Positions 7,494 to 29,547 of a stretch of 44,199 nucleotides of DNA are shown here, piece after piece. This DNA is from a virus. The position numbers and the translations under genes are program-made. The notes beneath the pieces are model-generated. The model had not been told where the DNA came from, ran no database searches, and saw only the letters and a list, made by a program, of their open reading frames with translations. The DNA lies in the IMG/VR virus record IMGVR_UViG_3300018080_000278, positions 1-44,199 of that record. One strand, written 5' to 3'. How positions within the stretch are numbered: the first letter of the stretch is position 1; every line of letters starts with the position of its first letter.

Positions 7494-10270
7494 CCTACGA
7501 GACCGACATCGAGAAGCGGAAGCTCGCGATCTGGGGCTCGTCGGCTGGGAAGTCCGCCATCGCCGACAAGCTCGCAGCCATGCTTCCGTCCCACCGCGTC
7601 TACGTCGAGCCGTTCGTTGGGAGCGGCGCTGTGCTCTTCGCGAAGGAGCCGGCAGAGGTGGAGGTGGTGAACGACTACGACGAGGAGATCGCCGAGGCGT
7701 TCCAGGCCATCAAGAACATGACGCCTGAGAAGCTGAAGGCGCTCGAGCGAAAAAACTGGAAGAACAGTCGGGAGCACTGGACGCGGCTGAAGGAGAACAA
7801 GCCGTCCGACGAGCTTGGCCGGCTGCATCGCTTCATGTTCCTGGCCCGGTTCAGCTACGGCAACATGCGTGGCAAGAGCTGGGACCCGGGGAGCAACGGC
7901 CAGGTGTACTCCGGTGCGGTGAAGCGCATCGAGCGGCACATGGCGCGCTGCAAGAAGCTCCACATCTACAGCGGCGACTACGAGAAGGTGGTGCGCAAGT
8001 ACGACAGCCCAGACACCGTCTTCTTCTTCGACCCACCCTACTTCGGTTACGACGCTCGGGTCCGCGAGAACAAGTTCGACGAGCAGCACTTCTACGAGGT
8101 GCTGAAGTCCATCAAGGGCAAGTGGCTCCTCACCTACGGCGAGCTGCCTGGGTTGCTGCGGAAGGGCGGATACAACGTCCGCACCTTCAGGACCTATCGC
8201 AGCATCGCCACGATGCGCGGCGTGAAGCCCACCAAGGTGCTCTCGCAGATCTGGGTCGCCAACTACAAGGTCGGCAACGCCACCAAGGCGCTGGCAAAAG
8301 CAGAGCGGCGCTCGCTGCGCGTCTCCAACCCGGCGCACCTGGTAGAACGCCTCACCGCTGGGCAACCGGCCGGCGTGCTCTCCGCCATCGACCGCAGCAC
8401 CTTCGTTGACCAAGAGCTGGTGCTCGTCAACGACATCCAGAAGGATGACGCGGCGCAGCAGGCCTTCGGCGTGGTGGTGATGAAGAGCGGCGTGCGCTTC
8501 GAAAGCGGAGCGAAGGCGGTGCAGGCCCTCGGCGAGAAGATCGACACCTTCATGGCCGACACCTATCGCAACGACCCAGAGCCTGTGTGGTTCGTGCCGC
8601 TGCGGCTGCAGACCCGCTTCGACCCTCCGCGCGAGATCGTGAAAGGGCAGCCCCTCCCGAGCGTTCCGTCACCGGAGCCCAAAGCCTACGATGACCGCGA
8701 TGCCTTCCTGGCCGAGTTCGAGAAGGAGGATGTGCTCGCTGGCGGCGTAGTGGTGGAGCCGATGCTCGCTGGCAAGAAGGTGATCGTGGCGCGCGACACC
8801 AGCGGCAAGGCGTTCGTGACCTTCAACGGGCGCGAGGACCAGTCGGCGAGCTACCCGGGCATCGCAGAAGCGGTGGCGAAGCTCTCTGATGCGTGCCTGA
8901 TGGTCGGGATGTGGGTGCCACACGACGAGGCCGGAAACCCGATGCCGGTCGATAAGGCCGTCTGGAGCACCGCGTTCATCAACGACCTCCCGGACAGCGC
9001 CTTCCTGCACATCGAGGCTGGCGGCAAGAAGGACGAGGACGGCAAGACCGTCCCGCGCAGCCTTCGGCACTTCCCCGTGCGAAACCAGGATGGCGACCTC
9101 GACGTCCCGCACCTGCGCAACGCCATCAGTCGAGCCCCGCAGGCAAAGCTGCCCAAGGAGGTGATCGAGCGCGTGCAGGCCGAGGCGCGGCGGCTGCTGG
9201 AGGAGGTCCAGAAGGCTGAGCGCCCCCGGCGTCGCGCCGACCATCCCCAGGGACGGGTCTTCATCTACGATGCCCTGCTGTGGGGCAAGGAGGACCTCAC
9301 GAAGCGCCCCTGGACCGAGCGCAAGGCTGTGCGCGACAGGGCGCTCGGACAGCGCGGCATCGGCCCGCTGGTAAACACCCCCGGCCGCGTCGTCTACTCG
9401 CGGGACGCGCTATCTGGTGCGCTCTCGTGGGCCTCCAAGCAGCCCGCGTCGGAAGGGGCGGTCGGCAAGCAGGCCAACGGGCAATATGTCCACGGCGGTC
9501 GCTTCGCCACCCTGAAGACCACCCGGGTCATCAACGCCTTGGTGGTTGGGGCTTCCAAGCAAGAGGGAGGAACCGTCTACGAGTGCGCGGTCGGTCCGCT
9601 CGCGGAAAACGAGGCTGGCCTCTGGAAGAACACGACCAACTACGACGGTCGCCTGTTCACCAAACTGGGGCCGACTCTGCCGACGAAAGTTCAGGCGTCG
9701 AACGGCGATGTTTTGCGCGTCGATGTTTCTGAATTGCTGGTCATTGACAGCGATAAAGGTCGTGCGATAACATGGGGGTCGCCGGTTGTGGCAGAGCGAG
9801 TTCGAGTTCGACCCGACGCGGTCACCGATGTCCGGTCCAAGGCGAGCCCGAACGAGATCGTGAGAAAGACTGAAGTCGCGGTTCTGAAAGCAGATGAAGA
9901 AGAACGCTATGTACTCGGGGTTGTGCTGGAGCCAAACGATGGCAAGGACGGTGCTCCGCTCGAGCCGGACGCACACCGCGACGTCTATTCTGTCGACGAC
10001 GTTCGCAAGGCAGCGCTGCGGTTTCTTGTCGAGTACAATAAGCTCGGCGTCATGCATCAGCGCATCGCCAAGCGGGCGGAGATGGTTGTGTGTGAAAACT
10101 ACGTCGCCCCGGCCGACTTCACCGTCAACGGCCAGAACGTCCGCAAGGGCTCCTGGCTGCTCGGCGCGTTCATCCTCTCGGATGACATGTGGCAGCAGGT
10201 GAAGGACGGCAAGCTCAATGCGTGGAGCATCCAGGGCAAGGCGATGAGCAGACCGGAGGTTGTTCGATGA
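7490..10270 (+). CDS. Three-part fusion: Dam-like adenine methylase + degenerate ATP-ligase-like domain + XkdF-type capsid protease
   Basis: A 926-residue protein; ATG 7490 overlaps the previous stop and AGAGGGG lies upstream. Residues 1-265 form a D12-class (Dam-like) DNA adenine methylase: YVEPFVGSGAVLF (38-50, SAM site), VVNDYD near 60, catalytic DPPY at 181-184, and an ending (VLSQIWVANY) like Dam proteins. Residues about 415-770 follow an ATP-dependent DNA ligase: VEPMLAGKKV (motif I position), FIYDALLWGKEDLTKRPWTE (IIIa), EGAVGK (655-660, IV), RFATLK (671-676, V), then an OB-like tail. The motif I Lys and Asp are Met425 and Ala427, so adenylation is doubtful. Residues about 793-926 match XkdF-type prohead protease (YVLGVVLEPND; His856; WSIQGKA with Ser913). 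The next gene is the scaffold, as expected for a maturation protease. Confidence 0.85.
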   Translation: MTYETDIEKRKLAIWGSSAGKSAIADKLAAMLPSHRVYVEPFVGSGAVLFAKEPAEVEVVNDYDEEIAEAFQAIKNMTPEKLKALERKNWKNSREHWTRLKENKPSDELGRLHRFMFLARFSYGNMRGKSWDPGSNGQVYSGAVKRIERHMARCKKLHIYSGDYEKVVRKYDSPDTVFFFDPPYFGYDARVRENKFDEQHFYEVLKSIKGKWLLTYGELPGLLRKGGYNVRTFRTYRSIATMRGVKPTKVLSQIWVANYKVGNATKALAKAERRSLRVSNPAHLVERLTAGQPAGVLSAIDRSTFVDQELVLVNDIQKDDAAQQAFGVVVMKSGVRFESGAKAVQALGEKIDTFMADTYRNDPEPVWFVPLRLQTRFDPPREIVKGQPLPSVPSPEPKAYDDRDAFLAEFEKEDVLAGGVVVEPMLAGKKVIVARDTSGKAFVTFNGREDQSASYPGIAEAVAKLSDACLMVGMWVPHDEAGNPMPVDKAVWSTAFINDLPDSAFLHIEAGGKKDEDGKTVPRSLRHFPVRNQDGDLDVPHLRNAISRAPQAKLPKEVIERVQAEARRLLEEVQKAERPRRRADHPQGRVFIYDALLWGKEDLTKRPWTERKAVRDRALGQRGIGPLVNTPGRVVYSRDALSGALSWASKQPASEGAVGKQANGQYVHGGRFATLKTTRVINALVVGASKQEGGTVYECAVGPLAENEAGLWKNTTNYDGRLFTKLGPTLPTKVQASNGDVLRVDVSELLVIDSDKGRAITWGSPVVAERVRVRPDAVTDVRSKASPNEIVRKTEVAVLKADEEERYVLGVVLEPNDGKDGAPLEPDAHRDVYSVDDVRKAALRFLVEYNKLGVMHQRIAKRAEMVVCENYVAPADFTVNGQNVRKGSWLLGAFILSDDMWQQVKDGKLNAWSIQGKAMSRPEVVR
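9744..9771 (+). promoter_or_regulatory. Possible internal promoter ahead of the protease domain
   Basis: TTGACA (9744-9749, perfect -35) is followed after 16 bases by GATAAC (9766-9771); TAACAT (9768-9773) is an alternative -10 at 18 bases. The late promoter at 999-1027 has the same look (TTGACG...TGCGATACT against TTGACA...TGCGATAAC). It lies inside the fusion gene, before the segment encoding the protease, in a locally A/T-richer stretch. It could raise expression of protease, scaffold and capsid genes. A coding-sequence coincidence cannot be excluded. Confidence 0.4.
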
Positions 10271-23055: not shown

Positions 23056-25275
23056 ATGACCGAGCTACTGTCTGCAGATGTCATCATCCGCGAGCAGCCC
23101 CCGGCGACCACTACCCCACCGTCGCTCCCGACGGCGGTGTGCGGAATGGTCGGGGTGGCTAAGAAAGGACCCTTCGGGAAGAAGCTGATCACCAGCTGGG
23201 ACGAGTACGTGAGGTACTACGGCAGCTGGGACGCCAACAGCGACATGACGCTCGCGGCTTACGGCTTCTTCCAGAACGGTGGGCGACAGCTCTACGTGTC
23301 GCGCATCGTTCACTACACCGACCCGAACGACGCTGGTACGAAGACCTCGGCCGCGTCGTCGGCAACGCTCACCACCACCGGGGCAGCGACCCAGGGCGAG
23401 GTGGAGAGCGGCAACGCAGAGCCGTTCGAGCTTGTGGCTGGCGGCTTCCTCGACCTCTCCGTCGATGGCGGTGGAACCGAGCAGGCGGTCTTCGATGCCG
23501 CGGCTGCGGCTCGCACCGGCAGCGGCGGCTCCTACCCCACCGGCTTCACGGGTGGCGAGGACCTCCAGGTCAAGATCGACCAGGGGACCACGCAGACCGT
23601 GGCCTTCAGCTCCGGGGCTTCCCTTCTCGCGGACGTCATCGCCGAGCTGAACGACCCGGCCACCGGGCTCAACGGCTGCACGGCCGACGACAACGGCGGC
23701 GAGCTGCGCATCACCAGCGACAAGGAGGGCACCGGCTCTTGGGTGGAGATCGTTGGCGGCTCCGCAGCGGCGACGCTGGGCATGGCTGTCGGCGCGACCC
23801 AGGGCACCGGAGACGTGGCGAACATCAAGGCCGTCACCGCTTCCGAGGTGAAGACCCGCGTCGAGGCTGACACCACCGCGCAGGTGACCGTCGAGAGCGG
23901 CGGAACCTTCAAGATCAAGACCCCGACCGTCGGCGACACGGGGTCCATCCAGGTGCTGGCGTCTTCGGACCTCGATGACGCTGCCTACTTCGACCTGGAC
24001 AACGCCGTCCACAGCGGCACCGCTGCGGGCGCTGGCAACACCGCGACCGTCGACGCGAAGACGGACGGCGCTCACGGCGACAGCCTGAAGGTCCGCATCG
24101 CGGCGGCGACCAGCGGCGACAGCGACGAGTTCAACTGGTACACCCTCGACGGCGATGTCGTGGAGGAGTTCTGGCCGAACCTGTCGACGGACCCGAACGC
24201 CACCAACTACTGGGTCACCGTCGTCAACCACATGACCACCGGCTCCGACCTGGTGGTGCTCACGGACCTGCTCGCTGGTTCGCCACCGAACAACCGACCG
24301 GACAACGGCGACTACTCTCTGAGCGGTGGAAGCGACGGGCTCACCAGCCTGAGCGACAACGACTTCATCGGCACCGACGCTGGCGGCACCGGCATGTACG
24401 CTCTGGACGACGTCGAGGACCTGACCATCCTCTGCATCCCCGGGCGTTCGACGGCGGCGGTTCACCAGGCCATGCTGACCTACTGCGAGGTCCACCGGGA
24501 CCGGCAGGCGGTCGCCATCCTCGACTCGGTCGAGGGGCACGATGCCGAGGCTTGCCGCGACTACGTTCGCAGCACCGCTGCCATCTACAACCTCTCGGAG
24601 CACGGCGCGTTCTACTGGCCTCGCATCAAGGTGCTCAACCCGAGCGAGACCGAGTTCACCAGCGACGAGAACGGGCTGATCGTCGTTCCCCCGTCCGGGC
24701 ACGTCGCGGGCGTATGGGCGCGCACCGATCAGCTCCAGGGTGGTGTGCATCAGGCCCCGGCCGGACCCGAGCGAGGCGTCATCTACGGCTGCCTGGGCTT
24801 CGAGACAGAGGAGGTGCTTCGCAAGCCGAAGCGCGACCTGGTCTACCCTGCGAACATCAACCCGATCACCACCTGGGCCGGCGTGCCTCGGCACATCGAC
24901 GGCAACCGCACGCTCAAGACCGACGGCCTCTTCGGAACCATCGGCGAGCGCCGCGGGATGTCCTACATCGAGCGGTCCATCAAGCTGCTGCTCTCCTACG
25001 CGCGGCACACGAACAACACCAAGTCGCTGCGCCGTCGCGCCGAACGCGACTGCGAGCTGTTCCTCCTCGGCGAGATGCGCAACGGCGCGTTCGCTTCGGA
25101 CGACCCGGACACCGCTTTCTTCGTGAGCTTCTCCGACGCACTGAACCCGCCCTCGGTGGTGAAGGCCAAGAAGCTCCGCGGCAACATCGGTGTGGCGAAG
25201 GCCAAGCCGACGGACTGGGTCATCATCGACATCTCCGAGGACACCCGGGCGCTCGACGAGGAGCTGGCTGGTTAA
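23056..25275 (+). CDS. Contractile tail sheath protein
   Basis: A 739-residue protein; ATG 23056 has GGGAGGC upstream. N-terminus (1-95) is typical: SADVIIREQPPATTTPPSLP, VGVAKKGPFGKKLITSWDEY and AYGFFQNGGRQLYVSRIVHY. The C-terminal sheath core runs from about 440 to the end, with ALDDVEDLTILCIPGRS, VYPANINPITTWAGVPRHID, GERRGMSYIERSIKLLLSYA and VIIDISEDTRALDEELAG. Between them lies a long Ala/Thr/Gly-rich insert (about residues 96-400), probably added surface domains. The sheath surrounds the tube and contracts to drive DNA delivery. With the tube, it fixes this phage as a myovirus. Confidence 0.92.
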   Translation: MTELLSADVIIREQPPATTTPPSLPTAVCGMVGVAKKGPFGKKLITSWDEYVRYYGSWDANSDMTLAAYGFFQNGGRQLYVSRIVHYTDPNDAGTKTSAASSATLTTTGAATQGEVESGNAEPFELVAGGFLDLSVDGGGTEQAVFDAAAAARTGSGGSYPTGFTGGEDLQVKIDQGTTQTVAFSSGASLLADVIAELNDPATGLNGCTADDNGGELRITSDKEGTGSWVEIVGGSAAATLGMAVGATQGTGDVANIKAVTASEVKTRVEADTTAQVTVESGGTFKIKTPTVGDTGSIQVLASSDLDDAAYFDLDNAVHSGTAAGAGNTATVDAKTDGAHGDSLKVRIAAATSGDSDEFNWYTLDGDVVEEFWPNLSTDPNATNYWVTVVNHMTTGSDLVVLTDLLAGSPPNNRPDNGDYSLSGGSDGLTSLSDNDFIGTDAGGTGMYALDDVEDLTILCIPGRSTAAVHQAMLTYCEVHRDRQAVAILDSVEGHDAEACRDYVRSTAAIYNLSEHGAFYWPRIKVLNPSETEFTSDENGLIVVPPSGHVAGVWARTDQLQGGVHQAPAGPERGVIYGCLGFETEEVLRKPKRDLVYPANINPITTWAGVPRHIDGNRTLKTDGLFGTIGERRGMSYIERSIKLLLSYARHTNNTKSLRRRAERDCELFLLGEMRNGAFASDDPDTAFFVSFSDALNPPSVVKAKKLRGNIGVAKAKPTDWVIIDISEDTRALDEELAG

Positions 25276-25293: not shown

Positions 25294-25755
25294 ATGGCAC
25301 TCACTGGAAGCGCGCGGCCGGTCAACGTCCGCTACAAGTTCACCATCGAGGTCGACGGCTTCACGTCGTTCGCCTTCAACAAGATGGGCGAGCTGTCCTA
25401 CGAGGTGGCGCAGATCGACTACTTCGAGGGCGGCGCGGTCACCCCGCTCAAGATCCCTGGCAGGGTCACCGTTTCCGACGTCGAGCTTTCGCGCGGCGCT
25501 GGGCTCGACCAGGATATGTACAACTGGGTCAAGCAGGTCATCGACCTCGTGAAAGGCGGAGGCCTGCAGCAGGAGGACTACAAGCGCAACTTCGACCTGG
25601 TGCAACGCGACCGCACCGGCGCGGAGGTGTTGCGGTGGTCTTGCAAGGGAGCCTGGCCGAAGAAGTTCGTCGCGGGCGAGTGGGACAACGACAGCGACGA
25701 GGCTGTCATCCAGTCCCTCTCGCTGGCCATCGACACCTTCGAGCTGGTTCAGTAG
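25294..25755 (+). CDS. Tail tube protein
   Basis: A 153-residue protein, the usual tube length; ATG 25294 follows GGAGGAGG. The sequence fits the T4 gp19-like family: RYKFTIEVDGFTSFAFNKMG, ELSYEVAQIDYFEGGAVTPL, VTVSDVELSRGAGLDQDMYN and an ending LSLAIDTFELVQ. It polymerises into the inner tube inside the sheath and lies directly after the sheath gene, the standard order. It is followed by a strong hairpin (25764-25797), consistent with a need to keep tube expression high relative to genes downstream. Confidence 0.92.
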   Translation: MALTGSARPVNVRYKFTIEVDGFTSFAFNKMGELSYEVAQIDYFEGGAVTPLKIPGRVTVSDVELSRGAGLDQDMYNWVKQVIDLVKGGGLQQEDYKRNFDLVQRDRTGAEVLRWSCKGAWPKKFVAGEWDNDSDEAVIQSLSLAIDTFELVQ

Positions 25756-25840: not shown

Positions 25841-26617
25841 ATGAACGTTAAGGAGATCGAGTGCCCCTCGGGCCTCAAGGGTGTTGTACGAAAGCTGAAA
25901 GTCTCCGACCTCGACGTCTTTGCAGACAGAAACCTGATGAAGCGTGGAGGGGCGGCGCTGGAGGCCGAATTGGCAAGTCGCATCTGGCAGGAGACCGTCG
26001 AGCGCGGACCATACGTTTTCGATGGCAGCCGTCCGCCGTGGACCACCGACATCCTGCAGGGCGACCGATTTTACGCCATCATGCAGGCGCGCATCCTTAC
26101 CCGGGGCAGCGACTACGAGTTCGACATCACCTGCGACAACCCCATCTGCCGGAACAAGTTCCGCTGGGGGTTGGACCTAGAAGACCTCCCGGTCGTGAAG
26201 CTCCCCGATAGCTCTCGGGAAGCCCTGATGGCAGACAACCGCTTCATGACTGAGCTGGAAGCGTGTGGCGACAAGGTGTTCTGGGCGCTGCCGACTGGTC
26301 GCATCCAGAAGCGCATCGACAAATACGTGAAGCAACACGGCCAGTCTCTCTCGACCGTGTTCGCGGCGCGTCTGCTCGGCATCGAGGGACAAGAGAACGT
26401 CGACTTCGTGGGCTACATGCAGGACCTCGACATCGGCGACTTCGATCAGCTCGCCTACGAGATGGAGCGCGCCGACTGCGGTGTTGACACCAGCATCGAG
26501 GTCGAGTGCCCAAGCTGCGCGAGGCTGATGGAACAGGAGGTCGGGTTCGGGAAGGATTTTTTTACGCGCGACTTCTCCCGGACACGGTCCCAGGGGACGG
26601 CTCGTGGACAAGCGTAG
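25841..26617 (+). CDS. Tail assembly chaperone, T4 gp26-like (zero-frame product)
   Basis: A 258-residue protein; I chose ATG 25841 for AGGAGG (25830-25834) upstream rather than the GTG at 25823. The pattern matches T4 baseplate gp26-type proteins: VKEIECPSGLKGVVRKLKVS, then ILQGDRFYAIMQARILTRGS (the Dr...imqaRil..G pattern), YEFDITCDNPICRNKFRWGL with paired Cys, and near residue 220 VECPSCARLMEQEVGFGKDF with a second Cys pair. It lies between tube and tape measure, where tail assembly chaperones occur. Seven T (26557-26563) at codons for Phe-Phe form a -1 slippery site; the zero-frame stop is 18 codons further. Confidence 0.8.
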   Translation: MNVKEIECPSGLKGVVRKLKVSDLDVFADRNLMKRGGAALEAELASRIWQETVERGPYVFDGSRPPWTTDILQGDRFYAIMQARILTRGSDYEFDITCDNPICRNKFRWGLDLEDLPVVKLPDSSREALMADNRFMTELEACGDKVFWALPTGRIQKRIDKYVKQHGQSLSTVFAARLLGIEGQENVDFVGYMQDLDIGDFDQLAYEMERADCGVDTSIEVECPSCARLMEQEVGFGKDFFTRDFSRTRSQGTARGQA

Positions 26618-26760
26618 TACAACAGGTGGTCGAGCTGATGCGGCGGAGCGAGGGGACCTTCTCGATGAGCTGGACGGAGGTGATGAACCTGGACCTTGAG
26701 ACCTTCGCTCACCTGCGCGAGCTGAAGGAAGAGCTGGTGGACCTGCAGAGCGGCAGATAG
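26506..26760 (+). CDS. -1 frame extension of the tail assembly chaperone
   Basis: This frame overlaps the chaperone end and stays open to TAG 26760. Although an ATG occurs at 26506, no Shine-Dalgarno precedes it, and the reading before the slippery site looks out-of-frame (MPKLREADGTGGRVREG). I therefore read it as the -1 extension: after Phe-Phe come 65 residues, YARLLPDTVPGDGSWTSVVQ, QVVELMRRSEGTFSMSWTEV and a final helix, making a product of about 306 residues. Production of short and long forms by frameshifting is a conserved feature of tail chaperones (lambda G/GT), here between tube and tape measure. The long form would bind the tape measure during tail assembly. Confidence 0.75.
   Translation: MPKLREADGTGGRVREGFFYARLLPDTVPGDGSWTSVVQQVVELMRRSEGTFSMSWTEVMNLDLETFAHLRELKEELVDLQSGR
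26557..26563 (+). promoter_or_regulatory. Slippery heptamer T TTT TTT for -1 frameshifting
   Basis: In the chaperone frame the codons read GAT TTT TTT ACG, so T-TTT-TTT forms a perfect X-XXY-YYZ heptamer. After a -1 slip the next codon is TAC (26563-26565). The -1 frame is open to 26760. Downstream, GTCC/GGAC (26587-26590 with 26595-26598) and CACG/CGTG (26583-26586 with 26603-26606) could form a modest stem, starting about 19 bases after the heptamer. Confidence 0.75.
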
Positions 26761-26775
26761 TAGGAGGCGACCGCG

Positions 26776-29547
26776 ATGGCGCTGAACGCAATGGGCATGG
26801 GCTACACTTTCACGGCGCGCGACCTCGCGTCCGGTGTGATGGCTCGCCTCAACCTCAAGATCCAGCAGCTCGCGCATAGCTCCAAGGACCTGGAGCAGAA
26901 GTACAAGAAGGCGACCGGCAACATCAAGAAGGGGGCTGCCACCGCAGCGGTTGGCGTCGGCTTGCTCGGCGGCATCCACAAAGCGTCGAAGGCTTACGGA
27001 GACTTCCAGTTCCAGATCGTGTCCGCAGCCGGCAAGATGAAGGACGGCGCGAAGTACATGCGGGACCTGGAGAAGGCTGCGCTCGAGGCTGGCAAGCTCA
27101 CGCAGTTTTCGCCCGACGAGGCGGCGCAGGGTCTTTCGGAGTTGGGCGCGCAGGGGCTCTCGGCAAAGCAGTCCATTGAGGCCCTCAACCCGGTGTTGAA
27201 CCTCGCGGCCGGCTCTCTTGGTCAGCTGGGTGTGGCGGACGCGGCGACGGTCGCGATGGCCTCCCTGAACGCCTTCGGCAAGACGGTCGACGAGCTTCCG
27301 CAGATGGTCGACAAGCTGACGATGATCAGCGACCGCTCGGCGTTCCAGATGCGGGATTTCCAGGTCGCCATCGGGCAGGCTGCGGCCCAGGCGAAGGCTG
27401 GCCAGCAGAGCTTCGACTCGATGCTCGCCACGCTCGGCCTGTTGCGCGACGCTGGCAACGAGGCGTCCTCTGCGGCTACCGCCTATCGCGAAGCCGTTCG
27501 GCGCGTAGCGGGCGACAAGCAGGCTCTCAAGGCCATGAAGGAGCTGGGGGTCTCGTCGGTCGACCAGAGCGGCGCGATGAAGGACATCTCCCAGATCATT
27601 GCGGAGCTGCATCCGAAGCTGGAGAAGCTCGGTGTGCAGCAGCGCAACCTCGCGCTGAAGACCATCTTCGGTGTGCGAGGCATGAAGACCTACAACGCTG
27701 TAATCGCTGGCTACGAGAAGCGGCTGGCGAGCGGCGAGGCGGCGGTTGGCGACTACGCTTCCGCGCACAAGTACCTGACCGGCGAGCTGGACAAGTCAAG
27801 TGGCGCGACCAAGAAGAAGGTCTCCGCGGCGCTCAACACCGTCGGCGGGAAGTACAAGCTGCTGAAGGGCTCCTGGCAGACCCTCGTCATCCAGATCGGC
27901 AAGCTCTTCGCGGAGCACGTTGCCCCGGCGCTGACGAAGTTCATCAACATGCTGAACGACATGATCAAGTGGCTCGATGAGTTGAGCCCTGGATGGCGGT
28001 CGTTCATCTCGACGCTGGTGACTTTCGGCGCTGTCATCCTCACCATCGTTGGCACCCTACGTGTGCTGCGCGGCATCCTCGGCATCTTCTCGCTCGCGCG
28101 GATGGCAGGGAAATACGTCGCAGGGCAGCAAGCGATGGCTGCGGCAACGACGTCGACTACCGCTGCGATGCAGGCTCAGAACGCTGCGGCGAACGGAGCC
28201 CCAGGAAAGCTCGGGCGTGTCACAGGAGCTATCGGTCGGCTCGGTCGCGGCATCAGCGCTGCGCTTCCCTACGCTGGGATGGCGGTGGCTGCGGTCGGCG
28301 TCGGGCAGGCGCTCGGAAACTGGGTCGTGAAGAAGCTGTTCGCCACCGAGATCGCGGCGCTCAAGGCCGAGGAAAAATGGACCAACTTCCTGGTGTCGTT
28401 CAACCGCTTCGGGCGCGCGCTTCACAAGCAGCAGAGCCGCTTCTCGAAGTTCAACCAGCAGCTCCTTGCACACGTCGGCGCGCTGGAGAAGGCAGCGGCT
28501 GCCAGCGGAAAGGCTGCAGACCGCGTGCTTGGTAAGACCATCATGGACCTCGGGACGCTGGCGGTGAAGCGCCAGAAGATCTTGGTGCAGATGCACGCTG
28601 CCATCCGAGCCGAGGACACCAAGAAGGCGCTCAAGCTCCAGAAGGAGTACCACGAGACCCAGCTCAAGATGCGCTCCATCAGAGAGGCCCGCATCCACAT
28701 TCAAGCCAAGCAGGCCATGAAGGCGCTCGAGACCGAGACGGACGCTCAGCGTCGGTTCAACCTGTCCAAGCAGGTCGCCATCTCGCAGGGGATGAAGCTC
28801 GACGACCAGTATGCGCGATATCAAAAGTGGGTCGATAAGCAGAAGGCAGCCATCGATGGTATCCGAGACGCGGAGGGGCGGCGCGTTGCAACGCAGCGGT
28901 TCGAGGGCGAGCAGCTCATGCGATACAGCGAGCTGACCGACAAGATGACCACATACCTGAAGCTGATGAAAAAGCTCGGGCTGGCAAAAGGCAAGATCGG
29001 CATGGGCATGGACGCGGAGAAGCAGTTCCAGATGTTCATGGGAGAGCGCGTCGACCCGGCGATGGAAAAGCGCGGCCTCGGCGATTATCGCAAGATGATG
29101 AGCACCCACCTTTTCCGTTGGGTTGGCAAGGAGATACTTCCGAAGGGCTACCTCAAGCAAGCCAAGGCTGGCGAGCTGAACCCGGAGACCATTCGCACGA
29201 TGGTCCGTGTCCGCGAGGCTGGATACCTGCAGCGCGGCTTCTCGAAAGAGGGCGCTCGCAAGGAGGCGGCGTTCTACAAGTGGTCCATCGAGAACGCCAA
29301 GAGGGCACCGTGGCTGCAGCATTGGGAAGGACCGCTCGGCAAGCTCCAGCACCGCCAGCAACGCGCGGAAGGGCGCGCTGAGTTCGAAAAGCTCTGGCAG
29401 GCGAAGGCTGCGGAGATCGGTGGCGGCGAGGTCAACATCAACATCTACGGTGACAAGCTCATCGAGGACGCGCTGAAAGTGCAGCAGAAGAGCGGCGCGC
29501 GGAAGGGCGCTCGGTTGAAGGTCCGTCGGCGTTCGGGGAGCAAGTAG
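26776..29547 (+). CDS. Tape measure protein
   Basis: A 923-residue protein; ATG 26776 has AGGAGG (26762-26767). The start (ARLNLKIQQLAHSSKDLEQK) is coiled-coil. Residues 70-260 follow the TP901-type tape measure pattern: FQFQIVSAAGKMKDGAKYMR, LTQFSPDEAAQGLSELGAQG, LAAGSLGQLGVADAATVAMA and GNEASSAATAYREAVRRVAG. A hydrophobic segment (about residues 410-440, LVTFGAVILTIVGTLRVLRG) and a second near 500-520 could enter the host membrane. The rest is long helix. It sets tail length; at roughly 1.5 angstrom per residue the length would give a tail near 140 nm. The end is basic. Confidence 0.9.
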   Translation: MALNAMGMGYTFTARDLASGVMARLNLKIQQLAHSSKDLEQKYKKATGNIKKGAATAAVGVGLLGGIHKASKAYGDFQFQIVSAAGKMKDGAKYMRDLEKAALEAGKLTQFSPDEAAQGLSELGAQGLSAKQSIEALNPVLNLAAGSLGQLGVADAATVAMASLNAFGKTVDELPQMVDKLTMISDRSAFQMRDFQVAIGQAAAQAKAGQQSFDSMLATLGLLRDAGNEASSAATAYREAVRRVAGDKQALKAMKELGVSSVDQSGAMKDISQIIAELHPKLEKLGVQQRNLALKTIFGVRGMKTYNAVIAGYEKRLASGEAAVGDYASAHKYLTGELDKSSGATKKKVSAALNTVGGKYKLLKGSWQTLVIQIGKLFAEHVAPALTKFINMLNDMIKWLDELSPGWRSFISTLVTFGAVILTIVGTLRVLRGILGIFSLARMAGKYVAGQQAMAAATTSTTAAMQAQNAAANGAPGKLGRVTGAIGRLGRGISAALPYAGMAVAAVGVGQALGNWVVKKLFATEIAALKAEEKWTNFLVSFNRFGRALHKQQSRFSKFNQQLLAHVGALEKAAAASGKAADRVLGKTIMDLGTLAVKRQKILVQMHAAIRAEDTKKALKLQKEYHETQLKMRSIREARIHIQAKQAMKALETETDAQRRFNLSKQVAISQGMKLDDQYARYQKWVDKQKAAIDGIRDAEGRRVATQRFEGEQLMRYSELTDKMTTYLKLMKKLGLAKGKIGMGMDAEKQFQMFMGERVDPAMEKRGLGDYRKMMSTHLFRWVGKEILPKGYLKQAKAGELNPETIRTMVRVREAGYLQRGFSKEGARKEAAFYKWSIENAKRAPWLQHWEGPLGKLQHRQQRAEGRAEFEKLWQAKAAEIGGGEVNINIYGDKLIEDALKVQQKSGARKGARLKVRRRSGSK

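Follow-up and report, generated by a model that had tools for sequence, protein, structure and literature searches.

A putative programmed -1 frameshift in a T4-type tail assembly chaperone locus of a contractile-tailed phage

The T4 proteins gp26 and gp51 were reportedly identified as the tail assembly chaperone (TAC) pair of this phage, TAC-N and TAC-NC, by Vladimirov, Gautam and Davidson in 2022 (Virology 566:9-15). A review of 2010 described both as hub assembly chaperones, gp51 being essential and of unknown function (PMC3004832). Citing Vladimirov et al. 2022, PMC10885494 describes some T4-like phages with one short and one fused long chaperone gene, and PMC12846349 describes slip signals of the polyT kind in the TAC-N genes that T4-like phages carry. 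For 0305phi8-36, a two-gene form without a frameshift has been described (PMC2147016). Here we describe a locus in the IMG/VR virus record IMGVR_UViG_3300018080_000278 (positions 1-44,199; 64% guanine plus cytosine (GC)), hereafter called the window. It consists of gene A and an extension B in the -1 frame, and very probably represents a tail assembly chaperone locus making a short TAC-N and a -1-frameshifted long TAC-NC. The features of the locus, all on the plus strand, are as follows.

25841-26617, plus strand: gene A, putative short form of the tail assembly chaperone (TAC-N), 258 amino acids (PF12322, E 5e-4; phrog_150 'baseplate hub', 1.5e-6)
26535-26540, plus strand: AGGAGG, Shine-Dalgarno-like, a possible stimulator 16 nt upstream of the heptamer (free energy of pairing to the anti-Shine-Dalgarno sequence, dG, -6.8)
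26557-26563, plus strand: slip heptamer T TTT TTT, zero frame GAT TTT TTT ACG, with a homologous heptamer in relatives
26563-26760, plus strand: -1 frame extension B (TAC-C), 65 amino acids after the slip, stop at 26758-26760 (open frame, codon-position GC, homologues and selection)
25841-26760, plus strand: predicted long form TAC-NC, 306 amino acids by translation, in the -1 frame after the slip
26624-26640, plus strand: AGGTGG 8 nt ahead of an in-frame ATG at 26638, a possible internal start of B

Slip site and overlapping reading frames

Near the end of gene A, T TTT TTT lies in the phase of a -1 slip, as given in the preliminary description of this DNA, and the -1 frame is open to 26760, between the tail tube and tape measure genes. 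The heptamer is the sole T run of at least six in the whole 44,199-base record; in a first-order Markov sequence of the same make-up, 0.10 runs of seven or more T would be expected per 44 kb. Across the listed genes, with approximately 11,000 codons, in-phase sites of the form X XXY YYZ (Y = A or T) number four. Counted from the A stop, the open -1 frame extends over 43 codons upstream and 47 codons downstream. Post-slip reading restarts at TAC 26563 and terminates just ahead of the tape measure gene, and the predicted fusion has the junction ...KDFF-YARLLPD.... GC at the first, second and third codon positions of B after the A stop is 0.65/0.33/0.89 versus 0.61/0.45/0.86 in all listed genes, which supports B being coding. 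The earlier statement that the -1 reading ahead of the slip has no ribosome binding site was only roughly true: GAGG (26498-26501) stands 4 nt upstream of GTG 26506 in that reading, and further on AGGTGG precedes ATG 26638.

We infer the slippage itself, its rate and the binding roles of the products as follows. Most ribosomes would end at 26617 and release the 258-residue TAC-N. At T TTT TTT, a minority would have both Phe-tRNAs re-pair one base back and would continue in the -1 frame to 26760, giving the 306-residue TAC-NC. By analogy with lambda gpG/gpGT, TAC-N would coat the product of the neighbouring tape measure gene, and TAC-NC would use its B domain, small and helical, to recruit tail tube subunits.

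Conservation of the slip heptamer and of the B frame

An alignment of six distant A proteins contained no stretch conserved enough for a scan, and closer sets were used instead. Profile scans yielded 55 viral and 36 bacterial loci, with further loci from phage records; the bacterial loci were mostly from Myxococcus, Archangium and related metagenome genomes. Where the sequence covers it, the usual order is A, B, tape measure, and the large phages have other genes after B. A canonical in-phase heptamer was found in the A/B overlap of 80/80 distinct loci with B in -1, compared with 2/170 control stretches further upstream in A. C CCT TTC alone occurs in 60 of these loci, T TTT TT(T/C/G) alone in 18, both in one (L073) and C CCT TTA in one; many C CCT TTC loci are close kin, and the independent cases are fewer (65 rows after thinning). 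L063, first counted as a -1 locus without a heptamer, proved to be a +1 member.

The T TTT TT(T/C/G) heptamers fall at a pair of Phe codons (FF). T TTT TT(T/C) at FF with B in -1 is present in the large phages XacN1, RAS14, Phosso, PA5oct, Atu_ph07, XaC1, 121Q, CBB, RaK2, Vibrio 2.275 and the cyanophage S-CAM8. At the same two Phe codons as in the window, its nearest relative by tape measure, L015 (tape measure 67%; A 39% identical), carries T TTT TTC. The preliminary description had proposed conservation of the heptamer as a check, and relatives that keep both frames after losing it as grounds for rejection. The run of seven T itself is absent from most relatives, but these have another canonical heptamer, C CCT TTC or in one case C CCT TTA, usually five codons upstream of FF, so that the proposed grounds for rejection do not apply.

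The long form could also be produced by RNA polymerase slippage on the T run instead of ribosomal slippage, and the homopolymer of seven T, eight in L033, would suit such a mechanism. Most relatives, however, use C CCT TTC or T6C, with no long homopolymer, and seven T is short for bacterial transcriptional slippage. Since the C CCT TTC members have no homopolymer, we consider this explanation very unlikely.

Based on profile comparison, selection and homologues, the second frame is kept as a protein across relatives. The B profiles of three groups match one another (P 1.6e-5, 1.1e-5 and 4e-7). In 126 myxobacterial pairs, the ratio of non-synonymous to synonymous changes (pN/pS) was 0.36 in the B frame versus 1.46 in the control frame, indicating that B is under purifying selection. 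Downstream of the slip site, the B frames of L040, L079 and PA5oct contain no ATG, GTG or TTG, and in S-CAM8 and many other relatives the first B start codon lies deep inside the conserved B core; in those loci B must therefore be reached through A. Because the heptamer is present in all of the -1 loci, B is under purifying selection and three relatives have a start-less B, the combination of a short A and a slipped A-B is well supported. Comparison strongly supports the first proposal, a programmed -1 frameshift in this chaperone gene of the T4 type, and all the comparative tests point to it.

Several points weigh against this assignment. Gene A of the window scores 20.3 bits against PF12322 (T4_baseplate), below the Pfam cut-off of 24.5. 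No significant RNA structure was found 3' of the T run (z -0.5 to +0.9). In-frame start codons, GTG 26626 and ATG 26638 with its AGGTGG, stand near the start of B. Finally, a search for a second assembly spanning the T run found none, and the run length rests on one contig.

The start codons would suit a separate small B protein, starting in the overlap or just past the A stop (at GTG 26626 or ATG 26638) and coupled to the translation of A, the T run being incidental. Consistent with this, L015 has AAGGAGG 5 nt ahead of an ATG at the same place, and in Pseudomonas phage Cygsa01 (L118 2809-2982), which lacks a heptamer, B is an own open reading frame (ORF) reached via a TAATG overlap and annotated as baseplate hub assembly catalyst. 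Against it stand the loci in which B has no start codon or has its first one deep in the core, and the unbroken presence of the heptamer in the -1 loci, so that we regard a separate B as unlikely. It is possible that free B is made in addition to the fusion in the window and in L015, judging from their putative internal starts. The homopolymer and the single contig would in turn fit an assembly or sequencing indel in the T run, with A and B forming one continuous gene; in the relatives, however, A and B are read in different frames, and both the A stop and an open overlap are retained, so that this explanation is extremely improbable.

Small genes annotated in phage records directly after gp26-like genes (for example SP15_046, LuckySocke gp91, XacN1 ORF316, 121Q gp595 and CBB gp249) fall in the B region. 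Such genes lie at L008 8216-8371, L012 3821-3940, L014 3804-3986, L108 2049-2216, L111 2136-2258, L112 2073-2231, L113 2043-2252, L114 1998-2174 and L116 2046-2249. Most of them resemble pieces of the frameshifted chaperone extension that have been read from starts within it.

Some further observations concern individual loci. In L069, near 2815, A is seemingly cut short directly after FF (DMADFFVK*), with a B-like frame further on. In Myxococcus xanthus AM003, this module of tail and capsid genes is present at least twice, on separate contigs (L072 and L083; G002 contigs C379 and C315).

Identity of gene A and diversity of slip sites

A PF12322 match was found in 22/23 aligned A relatives at E<=1e-3, the best being 1.7e-15. 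The AlphaFold2 model of A, built with 23 sequences, has a confidence value (predicted local distance difference test, pLDDT) of 91.8, which drops beyond approximately residue 240, where the FF slip codons (240-241) lie; B modelled alone reached 66.5, a low confidence. Among predicted viral structures, the best matches of A were a T4-like baseplate hub assembly protein (E 1.5e-16) and the SP-15 homologue (8e-15), the latter with a template modelling (TM) score of 0.66-0.69. After realignment, the top solved structure for A residues 1-93 was the HK97 TAC 2ob9 (Z 7.3, root-mean-square deviation 3.1, 75 aligned residues) and the second YqbN 3klu (Z 5.3), the next unrelated row having Z 3.5; values of Z below 8 are middling, and this fold match is supportive, not proof. 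Gene A also carries two cysteine pairs (C98, C103, C223 and C226). Given the PF12322 relatives and the structure matches to HK97 TAC and YqbN, A is most likely a tail assembly chaperone (TAC-N). This would correct the annotation of A as a baseplate hub protein and of B as a hypothetical gene.

The likeness of the zero-frame protein to T4 gp26, first put forward as a link between a baseplate protein and the chaperones, proved to be real. This T4 link is already published, so that for gp26 itself 'chaperone' is a better name than 'baseplate protein'. Both gp26 and gp51 match PF12322 (8.8e-64 and 3.9e-52). T4 gp26 ends in FFELL and has no B frame. The C-terminus of the gp51 family matches the cyanophage-type B (P 5e-8, score 40.7 versus a shuffled maximum of 13.3) and the large-phage B (P 1.2e-4). 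Since gp26 corresponds to A only and the gp51 C-terminus matches B, in T4 the short and the long form are encoded by two separate genes. The view of gp51 as an unrelated catalyst was rejected on the basis of its PF12322 match together with this C-terminus, which agrees with Vladimirov et al. 2022.

The myxobacterial loci had appeared heptamer-less, with GGC TTC TTC at FF, which was overturned by a codon-by-codon scan that found C CCT TTC upstream. CTC CCT TTC shortly before FF is identical in 33/33 myxobacterial rows, third positions included; the Pro codon in those rows is otherwise mostly CCG or CCC, yet it is CCT at the heptamer. Because relatives without the T run keep this invariant C CCT TTC upstream of FF, the slip site has been moved, not lost. 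A Shine-Dalgarno-like stretch (dG -6 or lower) lies upstream in 66% of the C CCT TT(C/A) relatives versus 14% of control sites; only 26% of the T TTT TT group reach dG -6, as the window itself does.

Ten loci (SP-15, LIS04, GXN1, LuckySocke, LR756508 and the viral L063, L064, L067, L068 and L070) have B in +1, with TTT C or TTT T as the junction at the same Phe codon. The shift codon is followed by CGT, giving TTT CGT, in three +1 members (L067 near 3175, L070 near 3097 and L010 near 4045), a UUU-CGU that we take to be the same as the +1 site of influenza PA-X.

In a tree of A (65 rows), the window and L015 group together (100/99) and have the C CCT TTC clade next to them, the deep branches being weak. 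At least 7 changes of slip class were counted on this tree, versus 25 for shuffled labels. We see roughly even chances that this homologous chaperone family has retained its short/long pair through repeated remodelling of the frameshift. The forms would be a -1 shift on T TTT TT(T/C) at FF, a -1 shift on C CCT TTC, placed five codons further upstream and aided by a Shine-Dalgarno-like stimulator, a +1 shift on UUU-C/U at the same Phe codon, and no frameshift (T4 gp26/gp51; the separate ORF of Cygsa01); the window lineage would be one of the places where the slip site moved. If true, the remodelled loci would form a natural series in which to ask whether selection acts on the site, the direction or the product ratio.

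The remaining tail genes around the locus are the following.

23056-25275, plus strand: tail sheath, contractile tail (PF04984, 3.5e-10; phrog_23, 7e-42)
25294-25755, plus strand: tail tube, T4 gp19-like (PF06841, 8e-23)
26776-29547, plus strand: tape measure protein (PF10145, 1.4e-35; phrog_1533, 2e-58)

Based on this order (sheath, tube, A, tape measure, then tube-like, hub and further baseplate genes), the window belongs to a contractile-tailed phage. The tape measure start at 26776 is preceded by AGGAGG. The sheath protein has 739 amino acids, with a long stretch ahead of the Phage_sheath_1 domain, and matches over its full length phrog_15814, which has no assigned function. Elsewhere in the window, an in-phase A AAA AAC at 7750-7756 lies inside a large ORF ending at 10270, the N-terminal part of which reads like a DNA adenine methylase; it may be a second recoding site or chance.

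Comparison with described chaperone loci

The gp26/gp51-type chaperone with a frameshifted long form appears not to be limited to T4-like and jumbo phages: other contractile phages have it as well, as do many prophage-like myxobacterial loci. This spread to myxobacteria may be a new finding, and so may the range of slip sites and shift directions that a single family contains. Homologous loci with differing slip sites and shift directions provide a set for experiment.

SP-15, LIS04, GXN1 and LuckySocke share with the window a PF12322-like A gene, a homologous B and a junction at the same Phe codon(s) ending A; they differ in that B is in +1, with TTT C or TTT T and no -1 heptamer. With the T4-like TACs the window shares, judging from the relatives of its A gene, the PF12322 family, as well as the location ahead of the tape measure gene that most members have and, in frameshifting members, the poly-T slip site at the TAC-N end. 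It differs from them as a 44-kb record of a contractile phage with a diverged A. Unlike T4, the record, which may be a genome fragment, has one A-type match only and not separate A and A-B genes.

Lambda uses G GGA AAG and has a smaller G. Its gpG/gpGT are likewise a short and a long form (PMC5009743). According to PMC12846349, the TAC of Pakpunavirus Adele and other Vandenendeviridae also has a poly-T -1 slip site, and its locus, upstream of the tape measure, has a B frame that stays open throughout; its motif there is GTTTTT, and it is likened to the window by slip site and layout only.
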